From: Hyphomonas neptunium ATCC 15444
GTDB taxonomy: Bacteria > Pseudomonadota > Alphaproteobacteria > Caulobacterales > Hyphomonadaceae
Assembly (NCBI RefSeq): GCF_000013025.1
Contig: NC_008358.1
Span: 2,728,001 to 2,792,000, forward strand
Reading direction: 5' to 3'
DNA: 64,000 nt
The position numbers and the translations under genes were made by a program. Below are positions 27,745-44,050 of the stretch, in pieces (the stretch's first letter is position 1; every line of letters starts with the position of its first letter). The notes under the pieces are model-generated. The model made no database searches. It saw only the letters and a program-made list of their open reading frames with translations, and was not told the DNA's origin.

Positions 27745-29361
27745 TCAGTCCGCCGCCATGCTGGCAAAACAGGCTTCCGGCGCCACGCCCTCAACCCGCT
27801 CCCACTGCATGCCCTCAAATGTATCGCCTTCGGCCTCCAGCGTCGCAGGCACACCGCGTACACACGCGCCAAACGCGTCGCTCGCCGGATAGATCATCTG
27901 CCCGTCGATATGCAGCGCGCGAACATACGCTTCCTCTTCAGCGCCCAGCTCGGCGGAAACGAAGTCGCTCCACGCCTCGATCGTCAGCTCCACATCGCCG
28001 CGCTCGCGCAGCGTGAATACCTCGCGCAGCAGCATATCAAGCGTGCGCGCCCCGCCGCTCGCGGCCCGGATGCGCGAATCCAGATCGGCAAAATAAAGCG
28101 CGCCGCGCTCATACGGCGCATGCCGGATGCGGCCGTCATTGAACCCCACCTGGCCAATTTCAATCGCAGACATTTCCCGCGCCGGATTGGTATAATATCG
28201 CTCGCTCAGCGCGTTGAGCTCAGAGACATATTCCTCCATCGGAACACGTCCCGCACGGAATGGCGCGGTATGCTCGTAATAGGTGGTGAGACCTTCGGAA
28301 AACCAGTTCGTCAGCACATGCTCGCCGCTCAATCCGCCCACCCACATATGGATCATTTCATGGGCAAGCGTCGAGCGCGGCGAGTGCCCGCCCATTTCTT
28401 CGGGCAAGGCAGGCCCGCGCGACAGCATGAAAGAATTGGCCAGCGCGGTGGCCCCGCCATAAGGCTCGGTATCCAGCTGGCGAAGGAACACACGGTAATC
28501 CGGCGCCGGATCGAGATAAGCAAAGAACTCGCCAAAAAAGTCATATAAATCTTTGGCGTAGGCCATCTCGGCGGCCACATCGAAGGGAAAATCGCCCAGC
28601 CAATAGGCGCGGAAATGGCTCTCCTCCTCCGCAGGTGGATATTGCCCGGCCTGCCCCGCCATCAGCCAGCCCTGCATCAGGGCGGCAGGCGGCCCGTTAA
28701 CGGTCACGCGCCCCTCACCGAATGTGGTGACCCCTACCGCACCCGGCCCGAACTCCGTCAGGTCCCACTCAAGAACCGACTGGCTGGCCTCGGCATTCAC
28801 CGGCACGATCATATAGCCCGCGCCCGAGCCACTGACCCCGCCTTTTGACGGCCGGATGCCAAAGGCCGGCCCGGAAGGTCCCCCCTCAGGCTGGACCAGC
28901 GCCCGGTAGCTGATGTCGAGAGGGAATTCGACATCACGGGTCGCCGTCCAGTGCCGGAAGTACGGGAAACCGCCGGGCACTGGGTCGTCCTGCTCAAGGG
29001 TGAACGCAACCGGGCCGGCCTCGTCCGTCACACGCAGATCAAGAATTCGATCCGCAATGCCCATGACATTCACATACACAACCGGCGCAGACAGCTTCAG
29101 GCGGGTTTCCCCGTCCTTCAGGTCACCATGCAGGCGAGACGTGACGGCGATGGCTTCCACCATCCCGTCCTCGCCCAGCTCGGGCCGGAGGGTTATTTCG
29201 TAGGAGGCTTCCGGCCCGGCAGGCGCCGCAGGTGCGGTCTCCCCCGGCGCTGCCTGGCAGGCAGCCGCAGCCATCAGCGTGCAGAAGACCGAGCCCGCCA
29301 CGCGCAAGGAACGGACGCCACATGCGGCCACGCTCCCTACCCGATACCTCGCGTTTGCCAT
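27745..29361 (-). CDS. M61-like zinc metallopeptidase lipoprotein (copy 1)
   Basis: 538 residues. A long n-region and hydrophobic core end in AAAACQA, a plausible lipobox. The catalytic domain shows the zinc site HEMIHMW near residue 332 and a downstream SEGLTTYYE that supplies the third ligand, as in M1/M61 gluzincins (glycyl-aminopeptidase-like). The N-terminal half is beta-rich. Ribosome binding site GAGAGAGG precedes the ATG at 29361. It is divergent from a second member, and the two appear to be paralogues kept side by side. Confidence 0.86.
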   Translation of the reverse strand: MANARYRVGSVAACGVRSLRVAGSVFCTLMAAAACQAAPGETAPAAPAGPEASYEITLRPELGEDGMVEAIAVTSRLHGDLKDGETRLKLSAPVVYVNVMGIADRILDLRVTDEAGPVAFTLEQDDPVPGGFPYFRHWTATRDVEFPLDISYRALVQPEGGPSGPAFGIRPSKGGVSGSGAGYMIVPVNAEASQSVLEWDLTEFGPGAVGVTTFGEGRVTVNGPPAALMQGWLMAGQAGQYPPAEEESHFRAYWLGDFPFDVAAEMAYAKDLYDFFGEFFAYLDPAPDYRVFLRQLDTEPYGGATALANSFMLSRGPALPEEMGGHSPRSTLAHEMIHMWVGGLSGEHVLTNWFSEGLTTYYEHTAPFRAGRVPMEEYVSELNALSERYYTNPAREMSAIEIGQVGFNDGRIRHAPYERGALYFADLDSRIRAASGGARTLDMLLREVFTLRERGDVELTIEAWSDFVSAELGAEEEAYVRALHIDGQMIYPASDAFGACVRGVPATLEAEGDTFEGMQWERVEGVAPEACFASMAAD

Positions 29362-29582
29362 CGCCAGCCTCTCTCCAGTTCAAGGGGCAACTTTCTTGAA
29401 GGATGGCAGAATAGTCCTTTCGATAATGCGCCCGAATAGTGCGCCTCTGCATGAATGCCCCGCCATAGGCCCGCCACCGGGATAGATATTTCGCTGACTT
29501 CCACACGCCCCGCCCTATTCGATTAGAGTTCCCCGGGCGGCGCGCTAGTCTCTCCCTGACACGCCCCAGAGGAGCCCGCCTT

Positions 29583-31352
29583 ATGATCCCCGCCCGCTCG
29601 ACACCTGCCGCCTTCAGCGCCGCCGCGCTCCTCCTGGCCACCCTGCTCTCCGCCTGCGCCGCCCCGGCTGAAACGCCCACGCTCGCCCCCGCCGAAGTGG
29701 CGACTCCGACGGACATGGAAATCGCCCTCACCCCCCGCCGCCCCACCGGCGACAAGGTCGAGACCATCGACGTGACGCTCACCATCCGCGAGCCTGCCCT
29801 CGCAGCGGGCGACACCTTCCTCTCCATGGCCATCGTTCGCGTCATGGCGCCAGGTGCGCTCAATCGCCCCGAAACACTGATCGCAGAAGACGCCGCCGGC
29901 CCGCTGCCCCTCACCATCGAGGAAGACCCCGTCGACCCGTCAGACTTCCGCCAGGACCGACGCTGGCTCGCCGCCCGCGCCACGCAGGGCGACGTCACCG
30001 TCCGCTACACAATCGAGCCGCGCGTCATCACATCCGCCACCCGCCCCGGCCCGCTGATCGACACGCGCACAGAGCTCACCGGCTTTTACGGCTCAGGCAA
30101 CACAATGCTTGCCCTTCCCGTCTCCGGTTGGCCGCGCGAGGTAGCGCTGGACTGGAACCTCGAAGACCTCACCCCCGGCGCCCGCGCTGCCTCCAGCCTC
30201 GGCGAAGGCGATGTCACCGCCACGGTCACCGCGCAAAATCTCAACAACAGCTTCTTCTTCGCCGGCCCCCTGCGCAGCCAGCCCGAAGACGGCGCCGGCG
30301 ACTTTGCCATCTACTGGATCACCCCCGCCGCCTTCGATCTCGACGGCGCCGCCGCCTGGACCCAGGAAGCCTACGCCTATTTCAACGGCTTCTTCGGCGC
30401 CAGCGACACGCCCTTCCGCGTCTTCATGCGCACCACCGAACGCTTCCAGGGCGGCGGTGGCGGCGGCTTCAACTCCTTCATCTTCGGCACCGTCGAAGGC
30501 GAAGATCGCGACCCCGATGAAGTCCGCGGCCTTCTCGCCCACGAGGCGCTCCACCATTTCGTTGGTGGATATGGCGATGGCGGCGGCGCGGGCGGCCAGC
30601 AATGGTATTCGGAAGGGGTGACCAATTACTACACCGTGGTGCTGCCTTACCGCGCCGGCCTCACCAGCCTTGAACACTACATCAACGACTTCAACGGCTA
30701 CGCCAAATCCTACTACACCAATCCGCAGTCGAACCTTTCCAACACCGAAGTCACCCGCCTCTTCTTTGCCGACGGAAACGCCCAGATCGTGCCCTATAAT
30801 CGCGGGCCGCTCTATGTCGCCCTCACCGATGCCCGCATCCGTGCCGCGTCCGGCGGAGCGCTCCGCGTGGACAATCTCATCTTCGATTTCATTGACGCAC
30901 AGAAAGGTGCCGAGGACGGCGTCGCCCTCTGGCATGATCTGGCCGAAGTCTATCTCGGCGAAGAAGGCGGCGCCGAATTCCGCGCCATGATGGAGGGCGC
31001 CCCGCTGGATCTACCCTCAGACCTCTTCGGCCCGTGCTTTGTGGCCGAAGACCAGATGTTGCAGAACTTCGTCGTCGGGTTCCGTCCCTATAAGGATGAA
31101 GACGGCCGCACACGGGCCGGCCCCATCGTGCCGGGCACCGCCGCCGAAGCCGCAGGCGTCGCGCGCTACGACATCATCACAAACCCCGAAGCCCTCGAAG
31201 CAGCCGAAACCGCCGCCCCCGGCACACCGCTCACCCTGAACCTTCAGCGCGATACCGAAACCCTCAGCCGCACCTATACGCCATGGACGTCCCCCACTCC
31301 CGGCAAGCAATGGGTCCGCACGCAGGTTCCCGAAACCGACTGCAATCTCTGA
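29583..31352 (+). CDS. M61-like zinc metallopeptidase lipoprotein (copy 2) with a PDZ-like C-terminus
   Basis: 589 residues with lipobox LLSACAA. The zinc site AHEALHHFVGG places His320, Glu321 and His324, followed by WYSEGVTNYY with the third ligand. After the peptidase domain, residues from about 495 (GPIVPGTAAEAAGVARYDIIT) look like a short PDZ domain, as in many M61 enzymes. AGAGGAG lies upstream of the ATG. Low-complexity Ala/Pro runs make up the N-terminal linker. Together with the divergent copy it extends the exported peptidase set of the island. Confidence 0.86.
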   Translation: MIPARSTPAAFSAAALLLATLLSACAAPAETPTLAPAEVATPTDMEIALTPRRPTGDKVETIDVTLTIREPALAAGDTFLSMAIVRVMAPGALNRPETLIAEDAAGPLPLTIEEDPVDPSDFRQDRRWLAARATQGDVTVRYTIEPRVITSATRPGPLIDTRTELTGFYGSGNTMLALPVSGWPREVALDWNLEDLTPGARAASSLGEGDVTATVTAQNLNNSFFFAGPLRSQPEDGAGDFAIYWITPAAFDLDGAAAWTQEAYAYFNGFFGASDTPFRVFMRTTERFQGGGGGGFNSFIFGTVEGEDRDPDEVRGLLAHEALHHFVGGYGDGGGAGGQQWYSEGVTNYYTVVLPYRAGLTSLEHYINDFNGYAKSYYTNPQSNLSNTEVTRLFFADGNAQIVPYNRGPLYVALTDARIRAASGGALRVDNLIFDFIDAQKGAEDGVALWHDLAEVYLGEEGGAEFRAMMEGAPLDLPSDLFGPCFVAEDQMLQNFVVGFRPYKDEDGRTRAGPIVPGTAAEAAGVARYDIITNPEALEAAETAAPGTPLTLNLQRDTETLSRTYTPWTSPTPGKQWVRTQVPETDCNL

Positions 31353-31372
31353 AATCAGGTCCGGCAGTCCGG

Positions 31373-34195
31373 CTACCGGCGCCCCACTCCGACAATGCGT
31401 TTGGCCAAACCCCCGATGAAACGGCTACCCGCATTCGTGGCGGTAAACACCCACCGGGCCACGCCCGTCCCGTCCCGCCCGGCGCGCATGCAGTAATCAA
31501 AGGCGTAGATCAGCACCATCAGCGACGACAGGATAATCAGCCCATCTGCCAGCGGCGGCAAAAACGGAAACCCGCCCCTGGGCCACAGAACAATGATCGC
31601 GTTGCCGATCCCGAATGCAAACAGCGACCGGCGGCCCATCGCCATCAGCCAGCGCGGCGCGCGGTTACTTAGCGGCGCCACCAGCAACACCCACAACAGC
31701 AGCACACAAATTCCGCCGAACACGAACACATAGGCCGGATGATTGAGGTTGCGCAGTTGCAAATTGGTCAGCGTATCCCAATCGACCGTGTATCCCGGAA
31801 TCGAGAACGCATAGACCAGCGCGAGCGCAAACACCGCCGCGAGAGGCAGCTGCATCCTCGCAAAATGCCGCCGGGGGCTGGGGTGCTCACCGCTGCGCCG
31901 GATGCTGTCGCCGATCCAGATACCCGCCATCAGCAACACGAAGCTGTGCAGGATTGACGGCCCCGCGACCTCGGGCGCCGCGCCCGCGCCAACGACAAGA
32001 TCCATGAGCCGCTGCAATATCGGCTGCCCGGCAACCTTGGGCGGTGTCGGCACCATCTTCAACGCCATGAACGCCGCATGGACTGCCAGAGACGCTGCAA
32101 ACAGGGCCCAGAAATTGAACCGCTTCAGAGCGTAAACAATGGCAGGGATGAGCAGGAACATGATCGTGTAGAAAACCAGGATCTGCGCATAGGGCATGGC
32201 CCCAAGAAGCGCCAGAGACCCCAGCGCATACATCCATCCGGAAGGATCAATCACCCAGATAGCAAAAACATTGACCGCATACAGAGCGTAACACTGCAGA
32301 GACTTTGTCACATAATCCTGCAGCGTTTCTCCCGGATCGGTCTGAGACGAGCGCGGAATATACAGCAGCGGAATCATCGCCCCGAACAGCACGATCAGCA
32401 TCGGCGTGGGAATCCGCGATATGAAGGATAACTCTGGCGGCAGGATATAGAACACCTGCGTGAAACTGTGCGCCATCAGCGCCAGGAAGATGGCAATCGT
32501 CCGCGCCAGGTCGAGACCCTGGATCGAAACGGAAGGATTGCGCTCCAGAGCGTCTTCGGCGCCCGGCGCCTGCCCCTCCTGCATCGCGACCAGATCGCCG
32601 ATCGGCATATTGGCCCAGTTATCGGGCACATGTCCGAGAAATCTCTCCAGTGTAAGGACCATCTGGACATAATTGAGCGAGTCGCCGCCCGCTTCGGTAA
32701 AACTCCAGCGCGGATCAAGGTTGTCCCGCCCGAGGACTGACGCAATCGCAGCGCCAAGCGTCGTGGCCGCAATCGGTCCGGGTTCCGGGCGATAGCTCCG
32801 GATCGTTGCATAGTCGGTCTTGCCCGAAGGCAGGCGGGGGATTTCGCCGACCTCAACCGCCGTAATCAACGAGGCCGGAATACCCAGATCCTGCGCCAGC
32901 AGGCCAGGAACGCGCGCTTCGCTGCCCGGCGTCGTGCTGGCGACCACGATGCCGGAATCATCCCCGGAAACCGCCGCGCTCACGCCCTCTGCGGCCAGCC
33001 GCCGCTCAATATCGTCAAACCCCAGCCGCAGGCCAAACAGCTTTGCAAACCGGCTGATTCGGCCGACAATCCGGTAATAGCCACGCTCATTGCGCACGGC
33101 GATGTCACCGGTGTGGATTTCATCCGTGCCCTGGGGTTTGGCCAGATCGGCGCGGGTCACCGCATACCCCATCATCACATTGGGGCCTTTATAGACCAGT
33201 TCACCGGCGCCTTCGGGCAAGCCCTCGGCATCCTCAATCGGCTCAAGGTGAAAGCTGCCGCCCGGCACCGCAACTCCCACGCAATCGGGATAGGCCGCCG
33301 CGTCCGCCGGCGGCAGATACGCCATCCGCGGCGCCGCTTCGGTCTGGCCATACATGACATAGAACCGCTTGCCGGAGCGATCAGCCCACTGAGCAAATTT
33401 CTGAACGCTCTCGGGCGAGAGCTTTCCGCCCGCCTGGGTGAGGTATCTCAGGCTCTTATGGTCGCGCTCCAGAAATCCGCCAAGTTCAAGCAGCTGATAG
33501 CTGTGCGGAACCCCGGCAATGCTGGTCACGCCCTCCCGGTCCACGATGTCCCAGAACGCGGGCTCTGCCACAGAGCGGTCGGTCAGCACGAGCGTATGCC
33601 CCAGAAGCAAATGCGTATGCAGGACCGAAAGGCCGAAGGAATAATGCGCCGGAAGGGAGGTAATGGCCCGCTCCCCCGGCTGGAATTCCAGATACTCGGC
33701 AATCGCCAACGCGTTGCTGCGCAGGTTTTCATGAGACAGCCGGACGAGCTTCTGGCTGCCGGTCGACCCCGAAGTTGAAAGCAGAACCGCCAGATCGGGC
33801 GACATGTCGGCCCGCTCGCGGCTCAACGCGGTCAGCTTCCAGATGCCGCCAGCACAGACATACGCCGCGTTCGGCTTGAACGTCTGCTCAATCGAGTGAA
33901 CGCCCTCGCCGGCGCTCGCAATGACGACATGCCCAGCGCGCAGAGCGCCAATGTAGAACGCAATCGACTGAACATCATTCTGCATCTCGACCGAGATGAG
34001 CGCCCGCTCAGGTCCGATTGCCTGCGCCGCTGTATCGGCCAGCTGGGCAAGCTCAGCATAGGACACGCTGGAGCCATCTTCACGGACAAGCGCGGTCGCG
34101 CTGCCAAAACGTTCGATTCCCTCGAACAAACGCCCTATCAGCCGGGCGCCATGCGCCGGTCCTGAGGCCTCGTCATGTCCAATGTTGGGAACCAT
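31373..34195 (-). CDS. adenylation-carrier protein fused to a membrane acyltransferase (NRPS-like)
   Basis: About 940 residues. Residues 1-500 form an acyl/aminoacyl adenylation domain with LLSTSGSTGSQK (ATP P-loop), MYGQTEAAPRM and HTGDIAVRNERGYYRIVGR, plus PSGKTDY near its end. A carrier domain follows, with the phosphopantetheine serine in EAGGDSLNY. The C-terminal 370 residues carry about ten hydrophobic helices resembling membrane acyltransferases (OpgC/acyltransferase 3 type). It should activate an acid, load it on its own carrier and pass it to a membrane acceptor. An in-frame TTG 36 nt upstream is an alternative start. No partner biosynthetic genes are adjacent. Confidence 0.85.
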   Translation of the reverse strand: MVPNIGHDEASGPAHGARLIGRLFEGIERFGSATALVREDGSSVSYAELAQLADTAAQAIGPERALISVEMQNDVQSIAFYIGALRAGHVVIASAGEGVHSIEQTFKPNAAYVCAGGIWKLTALSRERADMSPDLAVLLSTSGSTGSQKLVRLSHENLRSNALAIAEYLEFQPGERAITSLPAHYSFGLSVLHTHLLLGHTLVLTDRSVAEPAFWDIVDREGVTSIAGVPHSYQLLELGGFLERDHKSLRYLTQAGGKLSPESVQKFAQWADRSGKRFYVMYGQTEAAPRMAYLPPADAAAYPDCVGVAVPGGSFHLEPIEDAEGLPEGAGELVYKGPNVMMGYAVTRADLAKPQGTDEIHTGDIAVRNERGYYRIVGRISRFAKLFGLRLGFDDIERRLAAEGVSAAVSGDDSGIVVASTTPGSEARVPGLLAQDLGIPASLITAVEVGEIPRLPSGKTDYATIRSYRPEPGPIAATTLGAAIASVLGRDNLDPRWSFTEAGGDSLNYVQMVLTLERFLGHVPDNWANMPIGDLVAMQEGQAPGAEDALERNPSVSIQGLDLARTIAIFLALMAHSFTQVFYILPPELSFISRIPTPMLIVLFGAMIPLLYIPRSSQTDPGETLQDYVTKSLQCYALYAVNVFAIWVIDPSGWMYALGSLALLGAMPYAQILVFYTIMFLLIPAIVYALKRFNFWALFAASLAVHAAFMALKMVPTPPKVAGQPILQRLMDLVVGAGAAPEVAGPSILHSFVLLMAGIWIGDSIRRSGEHPSPRRHFARMQLPLAAVFALALVYAFSIPGYTVDWDTLTNLQLRNLNHPAYVFVFGGICVLLLWVLLVAPLSNRAPRWLMAMGRRSLFAFGIGNAIIVLWPRGGFPFLPPLADGLIILSSLMVLIYAFDYCMRAGRDGTGVARWVFTATNAGSRFIGGLAKRIVGVGRR

Positions 34196-34394
34196 GCATC
34201 GATCTTGTGAGACAAAGCAAACACTTAGCAAGACCTGTGCCGATGTGGGGCGAATTCCGGCTAAGGCCAGTCGCCTGCAACGAGCTGTGCTCAGCCGGGG
34301 CCGTCAGAATCAGGTCGGAAATTGCCCATCCGAAAGGCAAAGCTGGCCACCATTTGTGCGTGGCCCAGATCTCTGCATTTCATTTAACTTTGTC

Positions 34395-34469
34395 TGGAGC
34401 GGGCGAAGAGATTCGAACTCTCGACCCCAACCTTGGCAAGGTTGTGCTCTACCACTGAGCTACGCCCGC
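34395..34469 (-). tRNA. tRNA-Gly (anticodon GCC)
   Basis: Read on the minus strand, the acceptor GCGGGCG pairs with CGCCCGC and is followed by T-CCA. The D-arm GCTCAGTGGTAGAGC, the anticodon loop with GCC and the T-arm GAGAG-TTCGAAT-CTCTT are intact, and CCA is encoded. Confidence 0.96.
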
Positions 34470-34590
34470 ATCCGACTGGTATGTCCGCCTTCTCAGCGGA
34501 GCGGACGGAATATGCGGGAAGCGGCGCCTTTGCAAGAGCCAAATGAGCCCCCGCCTGCACAAATTGTGAGATAAAGCGGCGCGTCCCGTT

Positions 34591-35055
34591 TCAGCCCCGG
34601 AGGACCGCGCGGATCTGATCGGGGCGTACCTCGCGGCCGTCCGCGTCCACGAACGCGGCGCGGATGGCGCCCTTCGATCCGGCCTTGGTGAAGCTGATCG
34701 GCGCGGGCTCTCCCTGGCCCAGCCAGACATCGCCCCATTGGGTCAGCCCGATCAGGATCGGCCGCAGGGAAATTCCCATTGCCGAGAGCACATATTCAGG
34801 CCGCGCGCGCTTGCCCGGCACCTTGTAGGTCCGCTTGGTCAGCAGCCCGGCATCCACCAGAATCTTCAGCCGGCCCGACAGCACGGTCCGGGGGCATTTC
34901 AGCTCCGACTGGAAATCATCAAACCGGCGCACGCCATAAAGCGCGGCGCGCAGAATCAGCAGCGTCCAGCGGTCGCCGATCAGTTCGATGGCGCGGGCCA
35001 GGTTGCAGTTTTCCGGCGGAATGGGAGAGCGGCGGGCAAGGGGTATCTGACTCAT
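34591..35055 (-). CDS. HxlR-family winged-helix transcriptional regulator
   Basis: 154 residues. The HxlR signature is clear: CNLARAIELIGDRWTLLILR, FDDFQSEL and LSGRLKILVDAGLLTK, then the wing region YVLSAMGISL. It has a single Cys in the usual N-terminal position (ENCNLA), which in redox-sensing relatives can be modified. The gene is divergent from the phytase-like lipoprotein gene 136 bp away, which may be its target. Confidence 0.93.
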   Translation of the reverse strand: MSQIPLARRSPIPPENCNLARAIELIGDRWTLLILRAALYGVRRFDDFQSELKCPRTVLSGRLKILVDAGLLTKRTYKVPGKRARPEYVLSAMGISLRPILIGLTQWGDVWLGQGEPAPISFTKAGSKGAIRAAFVDADGREVRPDQIRAVLRG

Positions 35056-35191
35056 GATGATAAACCTGAAAGGGTTCGCTTTCTAAATCCAGAGGGGACG
35101 GCACACCTTTTCACGAAATGGTCAGACCTTTGTCATCCCGTCGTCCGCATTCACCCCGATAGCCCGTGAAGCGATTCTCAGGAGTATGCCT

Positions 35192-36325
35192 ATGCGTCTC
35201 AGCGTGGTTTTGACGGCCCTCTTTGCGGCAAGCCTGATCCCGGCCTGCGCGGCGCCCCAGGATGCCGGCGCAGGGGCCGCGCCCGTCATTGAAACTGTCC
35301 CGAAACGTCCTGAAGTGTCCCGATCTGTCCCGGAAGTGTCCGCGCGTGACGGGCTTTGGCGCGCCTCTGACCATGCCGAAACGCTGATTGCCGCCTCCTG
35401 CCCGGCGGGCACACGGCGCCAGCAGCCTCTGCCGATTGATCTGGCCGTAACCCCGGTTTCCCTCGGCCAACCCGATCAGATTGCGCGCCAGCTGCCCGAA
35501 ACTGTAAGCATTTCAGGGGCCTGGGAACTCTCGTCCAGCAACTCCAATCTCGGCGGTCTCTCCGGCCTGGCCCTCTTGCCCGCCTCGCAAGGCGGCGGCC
35601 TGCTCACCGTCTCCGATGCGGGCGCCTTCGTCTGGATCGACCTGGAAAACGGCGCCCCCACCGCCGCAAAAATCGCCTATATGCAAGGCTCTGACGGCGC
35701 CCAGCTCACCGGCAAGGCAGAAGGCGACGCCGAAGGGCTCGTCTGGTCTGATGGTCTCGCCCTCGTCAGCTTCGAGCGCGCCTTCCGCATCGAAGCCTTC
35801 GCCCTGAGCGCCTGCGGATCTGCGGCCCGCGCCGCGCGCGTTGCCACCCTCCCGGATAAGCACGATAATCGCAATATCGATGAAAATCAGGGTCCTGAGG
35901 CAATTTTTCTCACGCCGGAAGGCGCCCTCGGCTTTGGCTATGAGGGCATGCTCAGCATCTCGCCGCTCGGCCAGGTAAACGCCAATGGCACCGCCGCCTG
36001 GACCGGTGAACGGGCTTCCGCTCCGGCCCTGTATGGCCTTGTCGCCCGCGAGACTGTCACCCTGCCAGACGGATCGCATCGCGCCGTGGAGATGTTCCGC
36101 GCCTGGGACCCGATCCGGGGCAACCGCATTCGTCTGACATGGGGGAAAAGCGACGCAGACTCCCTAACGCTCAGCCGCCCCCTGCTGGTGGATAATTTCG
36201 AGGGCCTCGCCGCAGAACCCCTGCAGAATGGGGCGATCCGCGTCTGGATAGTGTCGGACAACAACTTTTCGGGCAGCCAGCGAACCCTGCTCTATGCCTT
36301 CGATATTACAATCTCACAGAGCTGA
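35192..36325 (+). CDS. esterase-like-phytase family lipoprotein
   Basis: 377 residues with lipobox LIPACAA. The domain from about residue 95 matches the esterase-like phytase beta-propeller family: NLGGLSGLAL, EGDAEGLVW, GPEAIFLTPEG and DNFEGLAAE are the repeated blade motifs, and IVSDNNF occurs near the end. The start at 35192 is preferred over 35186 because AGGAG then sits at the normal spacing. The linker codons at about residues 36-50 coincide with a phased TGTCC array. Exported members may hydrolyse phosphate esters; activity is unproven. Confidence 0.85.
   Translation: MRLSVVLTALFAASLIPACAAPQDAGAGAAPVIETVPKRPEVSRSVPEVSARDGLWRASDHAETLIAASCPAGTRRQQPLPIDLAVTPVSLGQPDQIARQLPETVSISGAWELSSSNSNLGGLSGLALLPASQGGGLLTVSDAGAFVWIDLENGAPTAAKIAYMQGSDGAQLTGKAEGDAEGLVWSDGLALVSFERAFRIEAFALSACGSAARAARVATLPDKHDNRNIDENQGPEAIFLTPEGALGFGYEGMLSISPLGQVNANGTAAWTGERASAPALYGLVARETVTLPDGSHRAVEMFRAWDPIRGNRIRLTWGKSDADSLTLSRPLLVDNFEGLAAEPLQNGAIRVWIVSDNNFSGSQRTLLYAFDITISQS
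35296..35341 (+). repeat. phased TGTCC array, five units (copy A)
   Basis: TGTCC at 35296, CGTCC at 35306, then TGTCC at 35316, 35326 and 35337, giving steps of 10, 10, 10 and 11 bp. The period does not match codon length, so it is not a by-product of an amino-acid repeat. It lies in the linker-coding part of the phytase-like lipoprotein gene. The minus-strand copy at 62496-62541 has the same spacing and also ends its six-base spacer in AAG. Confidence 0.75.
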
Positions 36326-36365
36326 GCAGTGTATGCCGCTTCCCAAAGGCATGGGGAGCCACTAG

Positions 36366-36550
36366 ATTTGCAAAGCACAAGGGCTGCTGCGCCCGCATGG
36401 GACTGATCTCCGGCGACCTTACTTTCCGTCAGGGAGCTGGCATTCTGGCTGGGGCCGTGGCCCTGGCTCATCTGGCGCCCACCTAGTCTCTAGGTCGACG
36501 GGAGTGAAATGTGCCCGGCGGCGACGTGGTTCTTGTGCACTCTTGCCCTT
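36366..36550 (+). ncRNA. ssrS: candidate 6S RNA
   Basis: The region directly precedes 5-formyl-THF cyclo-ligase, the conserved position of 6S RNA in many proteobacteria. Closing-stem segments pair: GCAA (36370-36373) with TTGC (36543-36546) and GCACAAG (36375-36381) with CTTGTGC (36532-36538). A CCTAG/CTAGG hairpin (36482-36494) sits in the central part, and a long imperfect apical hairpin closes at GGCC-GT-GGCC around 36444-36455. 6S RNA mimics an open promoter and sequesters sigma-70 RNA polymerase. The ends are approximate. Confidence 0.72.
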
Positions 36551-36584
36551 TCTGCCGAGCCCAGCGAGGACTAGGAGGGCCTGT

Positions 36585-37208
36585 ATGAGTATCGAAGCCG
36601 ACAAGACTGCCCTGCGCCACCGGATGCGCACCCTTCGCGCAGAGGCCGCCGCCCGCGATCCTGACGCCGCAGAGCGCCTCGCAGACATTTTTCCGATGAA
36701 ACTTCTGGAGCGTTACGGCCCGGTCGTGTCGGGCTATGTCGCCATCAATGAGGAACTTGATCCTTTCCCCCTGATGGAGCGCCTGGCCCGCGCCGGGGCC
36801 GAGCTTTGCCTGCCCCGCATGGAGGAAACCGGCATCAGCTGGCGGCTCTGGTCCCCTGGCGAACCGCTGGACCGGCGCCCGTTCGGCCTTTCCGAGCCCT
36901 CCGCTGACGCGCCGGAAGTGACCCCAACCCTCGTTCTGACGCCCCTCCTGGCCTATGACACGCTGGGAAACCGGCTCGGCTATGGCCGGGGCCATTACGA
37001 CGCCGCCCTGGAAAAACTTCGCGCCAAGGGCCGCGCCTTCGCCTGCGCGATCGCCTATGCCGCCCAGCAGATCGACAAGGTGCCCTGCGAACCCCACGAC
37101 CAGCCGCTCGATTGGGCGATCACGCCCATTGGCTCTGTTCCGCTGTTCATGATGCGGAACCGCAGCTCCCTGACGGCGCCCGCAACCGATGGCGGCGACG
37201 CCAGCTGA
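36585..37208 (+). CDS. 5-formyltetrahydrofolate cyclo-ligase
   Basis: 207 residues, close to the family norm. It converts 5-formyl-THF to 5,10-methenyl-THF using ATP. The signature LGYGRGHYDAAL (about residues 130-141) is the conserved nucleotide and folate loop, and an N-terminal K/R-rich helix is present (DKTALRHRMRTLR). The ATG at 36585 is preceded by AGGAGGGC. The upstream DNA looks like 6S RNA, so the gene is probably co-transcribed with it or lies just downstream of it. Confidence 0.93.
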   Translation: MSIEADKTALRHRMRTLRAEAAARDPDAAERLADIFPMKLLERYGPVVSGYVAINEELDPFPLMERLARAGAELCLPRMEETGISWRLWSPGEPLDRRPFGLSEPSADAPEVTPTLVLTPLLAYDTLGNRLGYGRGHYDAALEKLRAKGRAFACAIAYAAQQIDKVPCEPHDQPLDWAITPIGSVPLFMMRNRSSLTAPATDGGDAS

Positions 37209-37282
37209 CCCTCGGGGTTTTGCTTAACAAATAGTTGGCGCATAACTTGCTCTTCACGAAGGCTTAACCTTCGGAGGACGTC

Positions 37283-38284
37283 ATGGGTGAGATCGGCAAA
37301 GCTGGGTCAAATTTCTGGACCAAGACAGGCCAAAACATCGACGCGCTGGTTGTTTCCTGCCTCATGGCGGTCGCGGCCGGGGGCATCACAGCTCTGACGC
37401 CCGCTCCCGCTCCATCGCCTTACACCGGCAAAGCGCCTCAGCAGATTGCCGCCGCCCTGCCCCAGGCGGCCCCGCGCACCTCCGGCACCATGTACTACCC
37501 CTGGACTGCGCCAAAGCCCTACACGCCCGACCTGCCCGAGCCCAAAGCGCCTGCTACACCGTTGAATTCTCAGGAATCCTTTCTGACGCGCCTGGAAACA
37601 CCTGACGCAGACAGCATGCTGTACGCGTCCAACTATGACGTCAAAGACAGCCATTATGGCTGCCATTGGCGGGGCGAGAATGTCGAAAAGACCCCCAGCG
37701 GCGCCCTGCTGGCGATCCACCGCGTCAAAGGCGCGTCCCAACCCTGCACCGCCGCCGAAATGCAGACTGCCGGTCATTACAGCTATGGCCGCTATGAAGT
37801 GATCATGCGTCCGGCACGCGGATCAGGCCTGGTTTCGTCCTTCTTCACCTATACAGGCGGCTATTTTGGCGACCCCCATGATGAAATCGACATCGAATTC
37901 CTGGGCAAGGACACAACCCGAATTCACTTCAACTATTTTCGCAAAGGCAAGACCGGCGCCGACGAGATCTTCGATCTTCCCTTCGATGCCGCCGATGCAG
38001 ACCGCCTCTATGCGTTCGAATGGACGCCTGAGGGCATCACCTGGTTTGTCGAAGGCGTGCCCTATTACACCACGCCGGCAGAAGATTCCGGCCTGCCGGT
38101 TGCACCCGGACGGGTCTACATGAACGTGTGGGCGGGCGAACCCTGGATCGAGCAATGGACGGGCACGCCGACATACCGGTCCGGCGCAGGCGCCCATTAC
38201 AGCTGCGTCTCATTCGTACCGCTGGGCCAAAAAGGCGCCGGATGCGGCGACGATTATACGCCGCCTGCCGTCCTCAGCCCTTGA
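37283..38284 (+). CDS. glycoside hydrolase family 16 protein
   Basis: 333 residues. An N-terminal hydrophobic stretch (DALVVSCLMAVAAGG) and a Pro-rich linker to about residue 100 precede the GH16 jelly-roll domain. The catalytic motif HDEIDIEFLG gives Glu201, Asp203 and Glu205, the retaining beta-glucanase set. Upstream YGRYEVIMRPA and downstream EWTPEGITWFVEG are typical GH16 blocks. Probable substrates are beta-glucans or algal galactans; the family does not decide. Its last 11 bp overlap the convergent DUF1476 gene. Confidence 0.9.
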   Translation: MGEIGKAGSNFWTKTGQNIDALVVSCLMAVAAGGITALTPAPAPSPYTGKAPQQIAAALPQAAPRTSGTMYYPWTAPKPYTPDLPEPKAPATPLNSQESFLTRLETPDADSMLYASNYDVKDSHYGCHWRGENVEKTPSGALLAIHRVKGASQPCTAAEMQTAGHYSYGRYEVIMRPARGSGLVSSFFTYTGGYFGDPHDEIDIEFLGKDTTRIHFNYFRKGKTGADEIFDLPFDAADADRLYAFEWTPEGITWFVEGVPYYTTPAEDSGLPVAPGRVYMNVWAGEPWIEQWTGTPTYRSGAGAHYSCVSFVPLGQKGAGCGDDYTPPAVLSP

Positions 38285-38603
38285 TATCGTTGATGATCTG
38301 CTCGCGGGCGATCGGCAGCAAACGCGCCATTTCTTCCCGGACCTGGGCCTCCGTGCGGGTCAGCCCGGCCTTTTCGAGATCGCCGCGCACCTTGCGCACG
38401 ACATCATCGTCTCCAGCCTCTTCGAGGTCTGCGATCACCACGGATTTCGCATAGACGTCGGCATCGGCGTCTTTCAGCCCAAGCAGCTCAGCGGCCCAGA
38501 GGCCCAGGAGCTTGTTGCGGCGCGCGTTGATCTTGAACTGTGTTTCCTGATCAAGGGCGTAGCGAGCTTCCTCTGCGCGTTCGCGATCATCGAATGTGCT
38601 CAT
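38274..38603 (-). CDS. DUF1476 protein, F1-ATPase zeta-type inhibitor
   Basis: 109 residues. The start MSTFDDRERAEEARYALDQE at 38603 and the four-helix body (FKINARRNKLLGLWAAELLG onwards) match DUF1476, whose Paracoccus member is the zeta subunit that blocks ATP hydrolysis by alphaproteobacterial F1FO-ATP synthase through its N-terminal segment. The inhibitory N-terminus is intact. No atp genes lie nearby. The gene is divergent from purC across 182 bp. Confidence 0.9.
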   Translation of the reverse strand: MSTFDDRERAEEARYALDQETQFKINARRNKLLGLWAAELLGLKDADADVYAKSVVIADLEEAGDDDVVRKVRGDLEKAGLTRTEAQVREEMARLLPIAREQIINDIKG

Positions 38604-38785
38604 GAAGGTGGCCCTTTCGCTTCTGCCGGTCTCTATCGGCGCTGATATAGGGTGGATCATCAGGTGTTCGCAATAATTGTTTCTGTCACGGGTTTCGCGT
38701 AACAGTCCGCGCTTCAGGGGAGCGGGGCGAATGATTCCCGTTGGCAACGCATTTCCCTACGAACGCGCAGGAAAGGCCGGACGAG

Positions 38786-39565
38786 ATGAACAAGCGCCGC
38801 GTCATCTACGAAGGAAAAGCGAAAATCCTCTATGAGGGCCCCGAACCGGGCACGCTGATCCAGTATTTCAAGGACGACACCACCGCGTTCGATGCGACCA
38901 AGAAGGCCGTGCTCGATGGTAAAGGGGTTCTGAACAACCGCATCAGCGAGTTCATCATGACCCATCTGACGTCGGTTGGCGTGCCCAACCACTTCATACG
39001 CCGCCTCAATATGCGCGAGCAGCTGGTCCGCAAGGTCGACATCATCCCGCTCGAAGTGGTCGTGCGCAACATCGCCGCAGGATCGCTTTCCACGCGCCTC
39101 GGAATTCCCGAAGGCCAGTCCCTTCCGCGCCCGCTGGTGGAGTTCTACTTCAAGAACGATGCCCTGCATGACCCCATGGTCTCCGAGGAGCACATTGCCG
39201 CCTTTGGCTGGGCCACCGCCCAGGAATATGACGACATCATCGCCCTCGCCCTGCGCGTGAACGATTTCATGTCGGGTCTCTTCGCAGGCGCCGGCATCCG
39301 CCTGGTCGATTTCAAGATCGAGTTTGGCCGCTGGTTCGAGAATGACCACGACATGCCGCGCATCCTTCTGGCCGACGAAATCAGCCCGGACAGCTGCCGC
39401 CTCTGGGACGCCAAAACCGGCGAAAAGATGGACAAGGACCGCTTCCGCCGCGACATGGGCGGCGTAACCGAGGCTTATGCCGAAGTTGCCCGCCGTCTCG
39501 GCATCATCCGGGAATCAGGCGAAGAGACCGACAACGTCATCCACTTCACCGGCGGGAGCAAATAA
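38786..39565 (+). CDS. purC: phosphoribosylaminoimidazole-succinocarboxamide synthase
   Basis: 259 residues. It joins aspartate to CAIR in purine synthesis using [16 protein letters not shown] is the N-terminal ATP-binding motif, and [24 protein letters not shown] and LVDFKIEFG are conserved SAICAR synthase blocks. I chose ATG 38786 ([12 protein letters not shown]), downstream of AGGAAAGG. The stop codon shares a base with the purS start (TAATG), so the pair is translationally coupled. Confidence 0.97.
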
Positions 39566-39807
39566 TGAAAGCGGTCGTTCACGTATCCCTTAAATCCGGC
39601 GTGCTGGACCCTCAGGGCAAGGCCGTTGCCGACACCCTCGCCCGCATGGGCTATAGCGAAGTCGGCAGCGCCCGCGTCGGCAAGGTGATCGAGCTGGACC
39701 TGACAGGCGCCCCGGACAAATCCGCTGCCGAAGCGCGCGTCAAGGAAATGTGCGAGAAGCTGCTGGCGAATACCGTCATCGAAAGCTACCGCATCGAACT
39801 GGTGTGA
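39565..39807 (+). CDS. purS: phosphoribosylformylglycinamidine synthase subunit PurS
   Basis: 80 residues, the normal size for the small subunit of the three-part FGAM synthase (PurL-PurQ-PurS). The conserved start KAVVHVSLKSGVLDPQGKAV and the LLANTVIESYRIEL end match. PurS bridges PurL and PurQ and helps ammonia transfer. purQ and purL do not follow; a terminator and a TetR gene come next, so the remaining subunits are encoded elsewhere. Confidence 0.96.
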   Translation: MKAVVHVSLKSGVLDPQGKAVADTLARMGYSEVGSARVGKVIELDLTGAPDKSAAEARVKEMCEKLLANTVIESYRIELV

Positions 39808-39830
39808 GCTGCCGTGCAGCGCGGATGTGA

Positions 39831-39855
39831 AGGGGCCCCTCCGGGCCCCTTTTTG
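39831..39855 (+). terminator. rho-independent terminator after purS
   Basis: AGGGGCCC (39831-39838) pairs with GGGCCCCT (39843-39850) around a CTCC loop, followed by a run of T residues. Confidence 0.92.
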
Positions 39856-39903
39856 TTTGTGGTTGCCGTCTGGGCCGTCTCAGACCAAAGATAAAAATTG
39901 ATT

Positions 39904-39921
39904 AGTGAGCGATTGATCACT
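39904..39921. promoter_or_regulatory. candidate TetR operator
   Basis: An 18-bp imperfect palindrome with arms AGTGAGCGA and TTGATCACT (7 of 9 positions symmetric), 57 bp before the TetR start in an otherwise AT-rich promoter stretch. Size and position suit autoregulation by the adjacent TetR protein. Confidence 0.55.
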
Positions 39922-39978
39922 TGCTATTACTGCGCCCTCATGCTACATCCGGCCTGAACACACGGGAGCCCCTGCCTC

Positions 39979-40662
39979 ATGGCCGCCAAATCCACCTCTA
40001 CAAAAGCCAATGGCAAATCCGCAACCCCTTCCAAAGGTGGCGCAAAGAACGGCGAAAAGGCAACCGTCACAAAGCCTGAGGAGCCCATCCGCCGCCCCCG
40101 CGTGCGCGATGCCCGGCCGAAAATCGAGCGCGCGGCGCTGGAGCTGTTTGTGACGGTCGGGGTGGACGCTGCCACCACACGGGAGATTGCCGAAAGCGCG
40201 CAGGTCTCCGAAGGCGCGCTTTACCGCCACTACAAGGGCAAGGATGAACTCGCCCTTGCCCTGTTCATGGAAACGCACAATCGCCTCTCCGCGATGCTGG
40301 CCGAAGCCCTGGGTGGCCAGGGCGGCCTTGATGAAAAGGTCCATGCCGCCGTCGCTGCCTATTGTTCTCTGGCAGACGAGGATTTCCTTCTGTTCTCGTT
40401 CCACCTCGTCTCGCTGAACAAATACCTGCCCTATGACAAACGCCGCGCAGACGATCCGGTTTCCATCACGGAAGGGATCATCATGGACCTGATGGACGCT
40501 GCCGCCATCCCTAAGGGCGACCCCGCCCTGAAGGCCGCCATGGCGCTGGGCGTCGTCATGCAGGCGGGGCAAAACAAGATCTATAACCGCCTGCCCGGCC
40601 CACTCTCGCGCCACGCCCCGGCGCTGGCCCGCGCTGTTCTGGCCGTTCTCAAGTCCAACTGA
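39979..40662 (+). CDS. TetR-family transcriptional regulator
   Basis: 227 residues. A Lys/Thr-rich disordered N-terminus of about 45 residues precedes the helix-turn-helix: ERAALELFVTVGVDAATTREIAESAQVSEGALYRHYKGKDEL. The C-terminal ligand domain is unremarkable. The gene is followed at 26 bp by an acyltransferase gene of the PlsC type, suggesting joint transcription and a role in membrane lipid or fatty-acid control. Confidence 0.93.
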   Translation: MAAKSTSTKANGKSATPSKGGAKNGEKATVTKPEEPIRRPRVRDARPKIERAALELFVTVGVDAATTREIAESAQVSEGALYRHYKGKDELALALFMETHNRLSAMLAEALGGQGGLDEKVHAAVAAYCSLADEDFLLFSFHLVSLNKYLPYDKRRADDPVSITEGIIMDLMDAAAIPKGDPALKAAMALGVVMQAGQNKIYNRLPGPLSRHAPALARAVLAVLKSN

Positions 40663-40688
40663 TCGTTCCCTCTACGGAGCATATCCAC

Positions 40689-41495
40689 ATGCGCGGCACT
40701 CTCTTCCAGGTGGCCTATTGGGTCCTCTCGATCTTCTATGTCCTCGTTTCACTGCCCTTCCTGGCCTGGCCGGGCCACAGCCCCGTGCGGGCGATCATCC
40801 GCAGCTACACGCGGGCGATGAACCTGGCGCTGCGCCATATTGCGGGCATCCGCAAGGAAGTGCGCGGACGCGAGCGACTGCCGCAAGGCGCCTTCGTGAT
40901 CGGCGCCAAGCACCAGAGCTGGGGCGATGGCTTCCTGATCTATCCTGAAGTCAAAGACCTCGCCTTTGTCACCGGCGACCATCTTGAGCGCTTTCCGCTC
41001 GTCGGCGGCATCCTCAAGAAGCTCGGCGCCATCGTTATCGACACTTGCGGCGGCGGCGAGAAGAAGGCTTCCTCGCTCGCCGATGGCATGAACAAGGCCA
41101 AGGCCGATGGTCGCCGCGTGTTGATCTATCCGGAAGGCCATCTGGCGCCTGTGGGCTATCACTTCCGCTACAAAGCCGGGCTCTGGCACATGGCCGAAGC
41201 GATGGGTGTGCCCGTTGTGCCGGTTGCCACCAATATCGGCGTCTTCTGGCAGCAGCAGGAAGCCCCGCGCCGCCCCGGCACCGCTGTCATCGAATTCCTC
41301 GACCCCATCCCGCCGGGCCTGCCCAAGGCAGAGTTCCTCGCCCGGCTGACCGAGGCAGTGGAACGCCGCACGGCTGAGCTGGTGGCCGAGGCGACCGGCC
41401 AGCCATTCACACCAACAACCCTGATCCCGGACCCGCCCAATGGGTTTGAGGCCTCGCCGACAGCGAGTGATCTTGCCGCCTACAAGAAGGCTTGA
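40689..41495 (+). CDS. 1-acyl-sn-glycerol-3-phosphate acyltransferase (PlsC-like)
   Basis: 268 residues with an N-terminal membrane helix (VAYWVLSIFYVLVSLPFLAW). The acyltransferase HX4D motif is HQSWGD, and the substrate block reads YPEGHLAP where many members have FPEGTR. It should transfer an acyl group to lysophosphatidate or a related lysolipid at the inner membrane. The C-terminal 40 residues are Pro/Thr-rich and not conserved in the core family. It probably forms an operon with the upstream TetR gene. Confidence 0.9.
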   Translation: MRGTLFQVAYWVLSIFYVLVSLPFLAWPGHSPVRAIIRSYTRAMNLALRHIAGIRKEVRGRERLPQGAFVIGAKHQSWGDGFLIYPEVKDLAFVTGDHLERFPLVGGILKKLGAIVIDTCGGGEKKASSLADGMNKAKADGRRVLIYPEGHLAPVGYHFRYKAGLWHMAEAMGVPVVPVATNIGVFWQQQEAPRRPGTAVIEFLDPIPPGLPKAEFLARLTEAVERRTAELVAEATGQPFTPTTLIPDPPNGFEASPTASDLAAYKKA

Positions 41496-41532
41496 GCTCT
41501 GCCCCAAACCGCCTATCTAACCTGCACAGGCA

Positions 41533-41576
41533 GGAGGACGGCCTCCCCCATATCGGGAACGCTTCGGGACGGCCCG
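41533..41576 (+). promoter_or_regulatory. guanidine-II riboswitch (mini-ykkC)
   Basis: Two hairpins with identical ACGG loops: GGAGG-ACGG-CCTCC (41533-41546) and CGGG-ACGG-CCCG (41565-41576), separated by 18 nt. Paired stem-loops with ACGR loops define the mini-ykkC class, which senses guanidinium. The second hairpin ends 16 nt before the start codon of a Gdx-type exporter, close to its ribosome binding site, so control is probably translational. Confidence 0.92.
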
Positions 41577-41592
41577 TTTACGGGAGCCCCCC

Positions 41593-41907
41593 ATGCCTTG
41601 GGTCTTTCTTGTTATCGCCGGTCTTCTGGAAATCGTCTGGGCAACCTCGATGAAGCAATCGGCCGGGTTCACCCGCCTCGGCCCCAGCCTCATTACCCTC
41701 GCCGCCATGCCTGCCAGCTTCCTGCTGCTGGCGCTTGCCATGCGCAGCCTGCCGCTGGGCACGTCTTACATGGTGTGGACGGGCATTGGCGCGGTGGGCG
41801 CGTTTATTGTGGGCATCCTGTGGATGGGCGAAGCCATAACGCCTCTGCGCGTGCTGGCGGCGGCGCTGATTGCCGGCGGTATGATCCTGATGAAAATCGC
41901 TGAATAA
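41593..41907 (+). CDS. gdx: guanidinium exporter, small multidrug resistance family
   Basis: 104 residues, four transmembrane helices. Residues Glu13, Trp16 and Ser42 match the functional residues of the Gdx (SugE) subtype, and FTRLGPS and MVWTGIGAVGAF are subtype blocks. It works as a dual-topology dimer exchanging guanidinium for protons. The guanidine-II riboswitch immediately upstream independently supports the function. The last 65 bp, from 41830, are duplicated downstream, flanking an unrelated gene. Confidence 0.95.
   Translation: MPWVFLVIAGLLEIVWATSMKQSAGFTRLGPSLITLAAMPASFLLLALAMRSLPLGTSYMVWTGIGAVGAFIVGILWMGEAITPLRVLAAALIAGGMILMKIAE
41830..41894 (+). repeat. 65-bp direct repeat, left copy (3' end of gdx)
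   Basis: Identical to 42672-42736 except for one base (A at 41836, G in the other copy). It covers the codons for the last transmembrane helix of the exporter. The two copies bound an 842-bp unit (41895-42736, counting one copy) that carries an unrelated gene. Confidence 0.95.
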
Positions 41908-42082
41908 TTCCGCATTTAATCCGGTCCGCGAGCCCCCGAGAATTTAGGCATATCCAAGTGAGGTTGAGCGGGGCGACGAAATGCCCGCTTTGCTTTGGAT
42001 CAATTGGCCGCTCCATGGATGCTTGCCAACGCACACCAGGGATTGCAATCTCCTCTTTCAGAAATGGAAGGGGAGATTTTTT

Positions 42083-42673
42083 ATGGTTCGGAAATCGGCT
42101 GCCTTGCTGGCCGCATTCGTTTTCTCGCAGGTTTCTGCGGCCGACACTGCCGCGCTTTCCTGGGAACAGCCCGCCGACACAATTTACGCGGTTGATGGCT
42201 CAGATGCAGGGACAGGAACCAACTTCTACAGTTTTTCCAGACTCATCAAGGTAAGCGGGGGCACTGGCCCAATTGTCACTTTGAACTGTCAAGCGATGTC
42301 CACGGGAGCTCACTCTCTGAACGTTGCTATCCAGATGGACCCGCAAAATACGTATGAGGAAGACCCAAAAGAGCGGCTGCGACTTTTGAACATCAATGTC
42401 GCTCTCACCGTTGATGGCAAACGGCAGTTCGAAAAATTCATGATGCACCCCAAATCCACGAAAATTATACCGATCGACAAAGCGGTAGGTAAGCGAATCT
42501 ACAACGCTGCGGTCACTGGTTCATCCGTGAGCATCAAGGTGCAAGGCAGCACTTATGATCTGGAAATTCCGGACAAAGACGATGCATTCATCGCATTCGC
42601 TCGTATCTGCCCGACGACAAACGGTGGCACTTTCGACAACTCAATCTTCGAAAATGTACAAGCACCAACCTGA
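42083..42673 (+). CDS. hypothetical exported protein inside a 65-bp repeat-flanked insert
   Basis: 196 residues with signal peptide MVRKSAALLAAFVFSQVSAAD. The mature part has predicted beta character and two Cys (TLNCQAM and ARICPTT) but no domain I recognise. A strong ribosome binding site (AAGGGGAG) precedes the ATG at 42083. The coding sequence is visibly richer in A and T than its neighbours, and codon choice differs, suggesting recent acquisition. No recombinase or transposase accompanies it. Confidence 0.75.
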   Translation: MVRKSAALLAAFVFSQVSAADTAALSWEQPADTIYAVDGSDAGTGTNFYSFSRLIKVSGGTGPIVTLNCQAMSTGAHSLNVAIQMDPQNTYEEDPKERLRLLNINVALTVDGKRQFEKFMMHPKSTKIIPIDKAVGKRIYNAAVTGSSVSIKVQGSTYDLEIPDKDDAFIAFARICPTTNGGTFDNSIFENVQAPT

Positions 42674-42752
42674 AGCCGTAACGCCTCTGCGCGTGCTGGC
42701 GGCGGCGCTGATTGCCGGCGGTATGATCCTGATGAAGGTGGCGAGCGAATAG
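42672..42752 (+). pseudogene. duplicated C-terminal fragment of gdx
   Basis: Encodes 26 residues, starting EAVTPLRVLAAA and ending LMKVASE, matching the last helix of the exporter at 41593-41907 but with no start or N-terminal part. The first 65 bp are the right copy of the direct repeat; the ends then diverge (KIAE in the intact gene, KVASE here). This is the displaced original 3' end or a by-product of the insertion. Confidence 0.88.
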
Positions 42753-42754
42753 GC

Positions 42755-43243
42755 TCAAGCCATCAGGGCCGCCCGCCACAGCGCGCACTTAGCTTCCAGA
42801 TTGAGGGATGCGTAGGCGGGGCTCGTGGAGGGCAGGACGACCGCCTCTGCGCTGGCTGGCTGGTGCTGGGCGGCGTGTTTGCGGAAGCTGGCGGCTGCCT
42901 TGCCGCCATTGAGGCCTATATGGCGAATGTTTGGATGCGCGGCGAAGAAGGTGGCGAAGTCGTTTGGCACTTCGCCGCGGATAGCAGCGTCCAGGCTGCC
43001 CTCGCGCTGGCAGAGCTGCAGCACGTCCCAGACGGCCACCTTGCGCCGCGCCAGTACCCTCACACGGTCAGGATAGGACAAATCGGGACACGCGCCGAAC
43101 AAAGCGCACATGATCGGCCAGAAGGCGTTGCGGGGATGGGCGTAATACTGGCCCGCCTCCAGAGAGGCGATGCCGGGCATACTGCCCAGGATCAGGATTT
43201 CAGCATCGGGGGCAGCAATCGGGGGGAAACCTCGAATCTGCAT
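42755..43243 (-). CDS. DNA-deoxyinosine (hypoxanthine) glycosylase, UDG superfamily
   Basis: 162 residues. ILGSMPG near the start, the YYAHPRNAFWPIM block and LPSTSPAYA match the hypoxanthine-DNA glycosylase branch (family 6) of the uracil-DNA glycosylase superfamily, which removes deaminated adenine. The first residues MQIRGFPPI are typical. It stands alone on the minus strand next to the SUF operon. Part of it contains a phased TGTCC array. Confidence 0.87.
   Translation of the reverse strand: MQIRGFPPIAAPDAEILILGSMPGIASLEAGQYYAHPRNAFWPIMCALFGACPDLSYPDRVRVLARRKVAVWDVLQLCQREGSLDAAIRGEVPNDFATFFAAHPNIRHIGLNGGKAAASFRKHAAQHQPASAEAVVLPSTSPAYASLNLEAKCALWRAALMA
43066..43101 (-). repeat. phased TGTCC array, four units, outer two degenerate (copy D)
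   Basis: On the minus strand: TGTTC at 43101, TGTCC at 43090, TGTCC at 43080, TGACC at 43070, steps of 11, 10 and 10. Each outer unit has one mismatch. It lies within the DNA glycosylase coding region. Confidence 0.5.
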
Positions 43244-43263
43244 CGGCGGCGCCAGCGTTTTGG

Positions 43264-43623: not shown

Positions 43624-43658
43624 GGTCTGTAGATAGGGGCGCGAAGCCCCTCCTTCAA

Positions 43659-44042: not shown

Positions 44043-44050
44043 ATACGTAC

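Follow-up and report, generated by a model that had tools for sequence, protein, structure and literature searches.

We found that short arrays of the word TGTCC, repeated once per helical turn, mark local steps in GC skew, mostly to one side of the array, in the regions of the Hyphomonas neptunium chromosome that we studied. Our tentative interpretation, held at a little less than even confidence, is that each array binds a protein and acts as a polar loading site for a process that exposes one DNA strand.

The window analyzed is a 64,000-nt stretch of NC_008358.1 (2728001-2792000) and holds two five-unit arrays with steps of 10-10-10-11 bp. The one at 35296..35341 (plus strand), composed of T/CGTCC units, lies within the linker of a lipoprotein-like gene. 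Direct reading placed its units at 35296 (TGTCC), 35306 (CGTCC), and 35316, 35326, and 35337 (TGTCC), with CGGAAG as the six-base spacer, in agreement with the preliminary description of five phased units in a coding linker. The minus-strand twin noted there, at 62496..62541, was likewise recovered, with five TGTCC units, the same step order, and a six-base spacer (GCCAAG, read from 62541 to 62496) that again ends in AAG. The common step order is nothing special, as 197 steps of 10 bp and 26 of 11 bp make up the 223 steps of the 69 arrays described below. The host gene of the first array (35192..36325, plus strand, start set by the gene caller; PF13449, E 9.4e-22) comprises a signal-like N-terminus, a linker, and then a phytase-like esterase domain, and its N-terminus looks like that of a lipoprotein. 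The second array is intergenic, between two convergent genes, with a bactofilin gene on its left (61811..62353, plus strand, PF04519). Two minus-strand sites are additional to the preliminary description: three TGTCC units at 50284..50309, inside an aminotransferase class-V gene, and a TGTCC pair at 43076..43090, inside the ORF 42755-43243. Overall, the window contains five three-unit matches, compared with none in 100 dinucleotide shuffles.

The cumulative skew of the window reaches its minimum at position 41753 (genome position 2769753). Positions 1..41753 (plus strand) form a C-rich domain of negative GC skew, located mostly to the left of the array at 35296, i.e., on its TGTCC 5' side, with 4-kb skew values of -0.01 to -0.16 and one 2-kb bin at +0.03. 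The domain at 41754..64000 (minus strand) has approximately zero to positive plus-strand skew and contains all three minus-strand sites. Adjoining the skew step, window positions 41894-43663 correspond to a gap in the long alignments to all six relatives, which starts near 41894 and whose end lies between 42672 and 43663; this segment looks like a variable gene site.

Such arrays recur throughout the genome to which the window belongs (G000; one contig of 3,705,021 bases). Three-unit TGTCC matches numbered 188 (104 forward, 84 reverse), compared with none for the reversed word used as a control, and 37 matches fell in the coding DNA of 389 called genes, compared with 0.15 on average, and never more than 2, in 100 synonymous-codon shuffles. 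The excess over shuffled sequence that the preliminary description predicted is thus present genome-wide, copy number stands well above the level of codon-preserving shuffles, and its argument that protein repeats fail to explain the arrays is upheld by the in-gene counts. We analyzed the 69 arrays with at least three exact units among the matches listed, which span the first ~2.97 Mb: 22 have three units, 24 four, 13 five, 7 six, 1 seven, and 2 eight. From these 69 arrays in 2.97 of 3.7 Mb, we estimate ~70-100 sites per genome. Spacers follow a loose (C/G)GATT consensus, those of 11-bp steps share a loose CGGAAG-like consensus, and TGNC-like units carry on in phase beyond the exact arrays. 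Distances between arrays are random-like (CV 1.08), and even spacing was rejected. When phased arrays of at least four units with varied spacers were counted for any word in 464 kb of G000, TGTCC formed 14 (nine on one strand, five on the other) and three other words formed one each; two of the three were TGTCC arrays in a shifted register, and the remaining one was GCGCG. A generic any-word effect was therefore rejected, TGTCC being the only word that makes such arrays repeatedly in these 464 kb. No array of this kind was found for any word in samples of G444 (214 kb), G018 (140 kb), and G036 (120 kb).

According to our own gene calls, 45 of the 69 arrays are intergenic, 23 lie within genes, and one overlaps a gene end; the intergenic ones occupy 25 tandem, 15 convergent, and 5 divergent gaps. 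We scanned 17 of the 20 listed neighbors of the ten longest arrays, plus three window genes. Fourteen of the 17 neighbors carried enzyme or structural domains (one a sub-cut-off TIR match) and three had no match. They share no common theme, and a regulon was rejected on this basis; no cognate initiator gene was found among them. The weak TIR match (PF13676, L203:2577-3491) is in the gene adjoining the six-unit array at 1992882. Adjoining another array, G000:C1:1265860-1266060 (L189) contains the hairpin-like repeats CCCCACCCCAACCTTCCCC...GGGGAAGG and GTTGGAGTTTT...AAAACTCCAAC, parts of which have many copies in G008, G029, and G444.

The arrays did not show the predicted bias in strand or position with respect to the origin and terminus. 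Taking base 1 as probably near the origin, we counted 22 plus and 15 minus arrays in the first half of the genome and 16 of each in the second half as far as it was listed, without the orientation to replication direction typical of Chi or KOPS sites. The bias found instead is relative to local strand composition. Opposed neighbors also differ in distance, with a median of 18 kb for convergent pairs (plus then minus, n=19) and 43 kb for divergent pairs (n=18; p 0.009).

On the TGTCC strand, GC skew is negative 5' of the array in 58 of the 69 cases and 3' of it in 60. The arrays are flanked by genes of either orientation, and third-codon skew corrected for gene strand agreed in sign with the prediction at 59 of the 64 single-orientation loci (36/36 plus, 23/28 minus), two mixed loci and one duplicate being left out. 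Since the skew is carried by genes of either orientation, gene transcription was rejected as its cause. Long regions, chosen for their arrays, resemble a mosaic of skew domains of ~10-100 kb whose sign follows the array strand; the arrays at 1385467, 1392886, and 424229 lie within stretches of near-zero skew.

The C-rich reach of the TGTCC strand is markedly asymmetric, ~20-25 kb on the 5' side and 2-3 kb on the 3' side. In 464 kb of G000 (regions A and B, chosen for their many arrays), a two-sided exponential kernel with an amplitude of 0.10 and lengths of 25 kb (5' side) and 2.6 kb (3' side) fitted the 1-kb skew with an in-sample R2 of 0.58, compared with 0.48 for a symmetric kernel, 0.53 for the 5' side only, and 0.12 for the 3' side only. 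Sixty random assignments of array orientation yielded a mean R2 of -0.13 and a maximum of 0.35. Applied without refitting to a 393-kb contig of G008, the G000 kernel gave r 0.69 (300 random orientations: mean 0.21, maximum 0.65), and refitting gave 17.5-21 kb and 2.0-2.4 kb, a replication that is not fully independent because of the common ancestry of the two genomes. Within runs of equally oriented arrays, the skew follows a sawtooth, the 5' side being the steeper one in 12 of 14 cases (p 0.002; 30 of 34 over all arrays). At small loci, the skew was negative on the 5' side in 5/9 cases in G022 and 6/9 in G008, and on the 3' side in 9/10 in each; six G034 loci showed no link (negative at 2/6 on the 5' side and 3/6 on the 3' side).

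Dense arrays were found in four of the 41 genus genomes searched (G000, G022, G008, and G034), all within one seven-member clade. G000, G022, G030, G034, G008, G029, and G444 are mutually closest in the lipoprotein search, and identity over the window yields two groups, one of G008, G034, and G029 and the other of G000, G022, and G030. Among the 40 other genus genomes, G022 has 203 matches, G008 215, G034 129, G444 6, G030 4, and G002 1, and the remaining 34 have none. In a sample of the class (385 genomes, including our own), 20 others had a match and none more than three. Pattern scans named PHEH01 (HGW-Alphaproteobacteria-18), Hyphomonas sp. DS1.007, and H. polymorpha as carriers among the matches listed. 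The preliminary description held that absence from close relatives would speak against it, and this is half the case: arrays are dense in three near relatives, but weak in two (4 and 6 matches) and, as exact three-unit matches, absent from G029 (92% complete). The linker of the G029 lipoprotein-like gene (L232) lacks TGTCC and shows a 10-bp pattern of NAACGGA-like words, matching the G000 cores at 6 of 15 bases. An alternative core motif in G029 was nevertheless rejected, as the 38 kb searched contained no phased array of any word.

The positions of the arrays are largely conserved. Flanks of relatives' arrays led to a G000 array locus in the same orientation in 10/10 cases for G008, 5/5 for G034 (counting the locus L405 with G034 by assumption), 6/11 for G022, 5/6 for G444, and 3/4 for G030. 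In this test, which starts from the relatives' arrays only, 29 of the 36 arrays looked at in five relatives thus share their position with G000, and misses may fall outside the listed part of the G000 set. These common positions speak against the dispersed selfish repeat suggested earlier, and against copies at non-orthologous positions as a mobile REP- or MITE-like trait. Spacers mostly differ between loci, and blastn at the setting used found no repeat common to five or more places in the 464 kb, but five array pairs share an identical 25-mer, so that some copying between array loci may have occurred.

Conservation is concentrated in the core. In a comparison that starts from G000 arrays, requires no array in the relative, and sets gapped positions aside, identity over G022, G034, and G008 was 163/174 (94%) for cores, 82/136 (60%) for spacers, and 2775/3494 (79%) for flanks, which, together with the 10/11-bp steps, matches the predicted combination of fixed spacing and variable spacers. 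At least two exact units were in place in all nine site-relative cases of these dense relatives. In G030, core identity was 57/66 and units were kept in 3/4 cases; the corresponding values were 72/89 and 1/6 in G444, and 17/36 and 0/2 in G029. Core identity thus exceeds that of the surroundings in genomes with dense arrays and is close to or below it in the others. A second count over 22 array-selected comparisons (cores 483/494, spacers 235/390, flanks 6608/8271) inflates core identity, because the relatives' arrays were themselves found by exact cores. The spacer consensus differs between subclades. Within the window, the 35296 site has at least two exact TGTCC units in G022, G034, G008, and G030 and none in G029 and G444; the 62496 site has six-unit arrays in G022, G034, and G008, TGNCC-like units in G030, and none in G029 and G444; and the 50284 site has two units in G008, G034, and G030 and none in G444. 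In G030, both window arrays are now partly TGNCC-like.

We examined the persistence of the mosaic through substitutions in region A, polarized with G444 and restricted to conserved sites (34,098 three-way sites). On the G000 branch, 283 C>G and 228 G>C changes kept or raised the skew in both domain signs, whereas on the G030 branch the skew decays (242 C>G vs 387 G>C, p 8e-9). With a stricter threshold, G000 became neutral (140 vs 135) and G030 still fell (144, 216). The effect was weaker in the window, where all branches, including the array-bearing ones, lose a little skew, and in a small region A block (2,406 sites) array-bearing G008 loses skew. According to PMC6650430, marker frequency in H. 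neptunium follows a single bell-shaped curve that peaks near hemE, one origin is mapped, and GC skew is uninformative for locating it. As the mosaic flips sign several times within 280 kb and the reported origin is single, replication direction offers no explanation for it.

How might an array act? It would present TGTCC on one face of the helix at each turn, where an oligomeric or DNA-wrapping protein could bind the units side by side. The phasing and core conservation point to side-by-side binding by a candidate protein, and a protein oligomer on same-face half-sites, as proposed in the preliminary description, remains the natural reading of the 10/11-bp steps and conserved cores. From the skew association in the regions studied, we infer a process as its cause. 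Such a process would run ~20-25 kb 5' to 3' along the GGACA strand, i.e., on the TGTCC 5' side, and 2-3 kb oppositely, stripping C from the GGACA strand and giving it the look of a leading strand or of a strand exposed as ssDNA. C loss on this strand would fit either single-strand exposure or a leading-strand role; most likely, the process exposes the GGACA strand as a single strand, perhaps through limited replication, displacement, or strand transfer initiated at the array. With arrays in both orientations, the chromosome would be cut into a mosaic of strand composition that is not set by the single origin. In G029, G030, and G444, we would expect the factor that reads the arrays to have weakened or disappeared. 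The full scheme, in which dozens of phased polar loading sites would recruit a machine that exposes or resynthesizes one strand over ~20-25 kb, producing an origin-independent mosaic, and in which loss of the reader would lead to decay of arrays and mosaic alike, is a possibility that we put at appreciably less than even. Three candidate marker families, one each for gene transfer agents (GTA), MOBP relaxases, and Prim-Pol, were rejected, as none tracks the arrays. The relaxase PF03432 is absent from G000 and present in G022, G008, G034, and array-free G029, which does not match an oriT-like reading with a MOBP relaxase wherever arrays are dense; the Prim-Pol family had no match in G000.

Compared with the polar loading-site reading, a simpler account, which we regard as rather unlikely yet deserving of weight, is that the arrays passively follow a skew mosaic made otherwise. 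A non-polar chromosome-binding site, for a nucleoid organizer or similar, would then be oriented by composition, as TGTCC, having two C but a single G, should arise and survive more readily on a strand rich in C. Outside arrays, isolated TGTCC words indeed prefer the C-rich strand by 1.5-1.6 to 1 (254:170 in G000, 175:108 in G008), so that part of the array-orientation agreement can be due to composition alone, and G444 and G030, which have few exact arrays, share the mosaic with G000 at a lower amplitude (corr 0.62-0.93). However, passive following predicts neither the polarity (25 kb vs 2-3 kb) nor the steps inside equal-orientation runs (12/14). We consider it highly doubtful that replication direction set both arrays and skew and that inversions later shuffled the two. 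Gene order and orientation in G018 and G036 do differ around the 1264-kb step, but G444 and G030 are collinear across it, apart from insertions or gaps, and have the common mosaic, and the G000 lineage keeps its skew in both domain signs inside one 280-kb region. In addition, skew is weaker and almost uniform in sign in the array-free G018 and G036 samples (140 and 120 kb), although it varies in sign within a 20-kb piece of G018.

Two further accounts invoke DNA transfer. An uptake-signal-like role, in which a competence receptor binds the arrays, transformation drive spreads them, and polar import of one strand creates the asymmetry, seems improbable to us. It is in line with arrays that are dispersed and evolve in place, mostly in intergenic DNA (45/69, only 5 of these in divergent, promoter-bearing gaps), and with the subclade-specific spacer consensus, but the estimated ~70-100 sites per genome are multi-unit rather than a single word. 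In DNA uptake, moreover, the strand enters 3' end first, and C loss would then be expected on the opposite strand. Least probable of all, to the point of being hardly credible, are pac sites of a GTA, where a ring-shaped small terminase would wrap the phased array and package in one direction for an average of ~25 kb. Polarity and exponential decay do resemble headful packaging, but the RcGTA marker PF13547 is missing from G000 and G034, which bear arrays, and occurs in G444, which is poor in them. In G029, the GTA TIM-barrel family matches two adjacent pieces (G029:C271:2351-3201), a gene that may be broken or misassembled.

The arrays share features with several known classes of sites. The effect of Chi sites is polar, lying on their 5' side and fading over many kb, and the reach of the arrays is similar, but the arrays are multi-unit, phased, and free of bias by chromosome half. 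USS/DUS are dispersed, mostly intergenic, have a conserved core, and form lineage dialects, all of which applies to the arrays; unlike them, the arrays have 3-8 units, number tens rather than hundreds of sites, and are tied to strand composition on a kb scale. KOPS and architecture imparting sequences are likewise polar and dispersed over the chromosome, but they are single octamers, whereas the TGTCC sites are arrays and show no orientation by chromosome half. In partition centromeres of the ParR/TubR type, a small oligomeric protein binds phased repeats of 10-12 bp at one locus beside its own genes; the arrays are similarly phased but dispersed. We know of no system that explains TGTCC arrays marking skew steps, and a literature search over titles and abstracts of the best-ranked results returned nothing on such arrays. 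Iterons of phage and plasmid origins resemble the G000 arrays in being short direct repeats in helical phase with a conserved core. In contrast to iterons, the arrays occur in dozens of chromosomal copies, the longest adjoin housekeeping-type genes, G000 has no Prim-Pol match, and H. neptunium has a single mapped origin, according to PMC6650430. The single-peak marker-frequency curve given there argues against strong replication initiation at the arrays.

Four-unit TGTCC arrays also occur in at least 120 IMG/VR viral stretches, compared with 54 for the reversed word (an excess of at least ~two-fold). Many are in or beside ORFs, including some replication genes, and some are plain tandem repeats. 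Over the 120 loci listed, 84 mechanically called ORFs contain an array; of ten scanned, one encodes a Prim-Pol/AAA protein and seven lack a Pfam match. At L074, L088, L098, L107, and other viral loci on phage-like contigs, arrays face each other (plus then minus) within ~100 bp in total and resemble paired origin iterons; those of L098 lie inside the Prim-Pol/AAA gene. By analogy, the likeness of the non-tandem viral arrays to origin iterons suggests, as a lead only, a related binding fold.

The array sites are defined at the base level, conserved across several species, and testable in a genetically tractable laboratory organism. If the polar loading-site reading is right, it would account for the failure of GC skew to reveal a clear origin in H. 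neptunium (PMC6650430). Bacterial strand asymmetry would then be set locally by cis sites rather than by the replication fork, representing a new chromosome-scale process.
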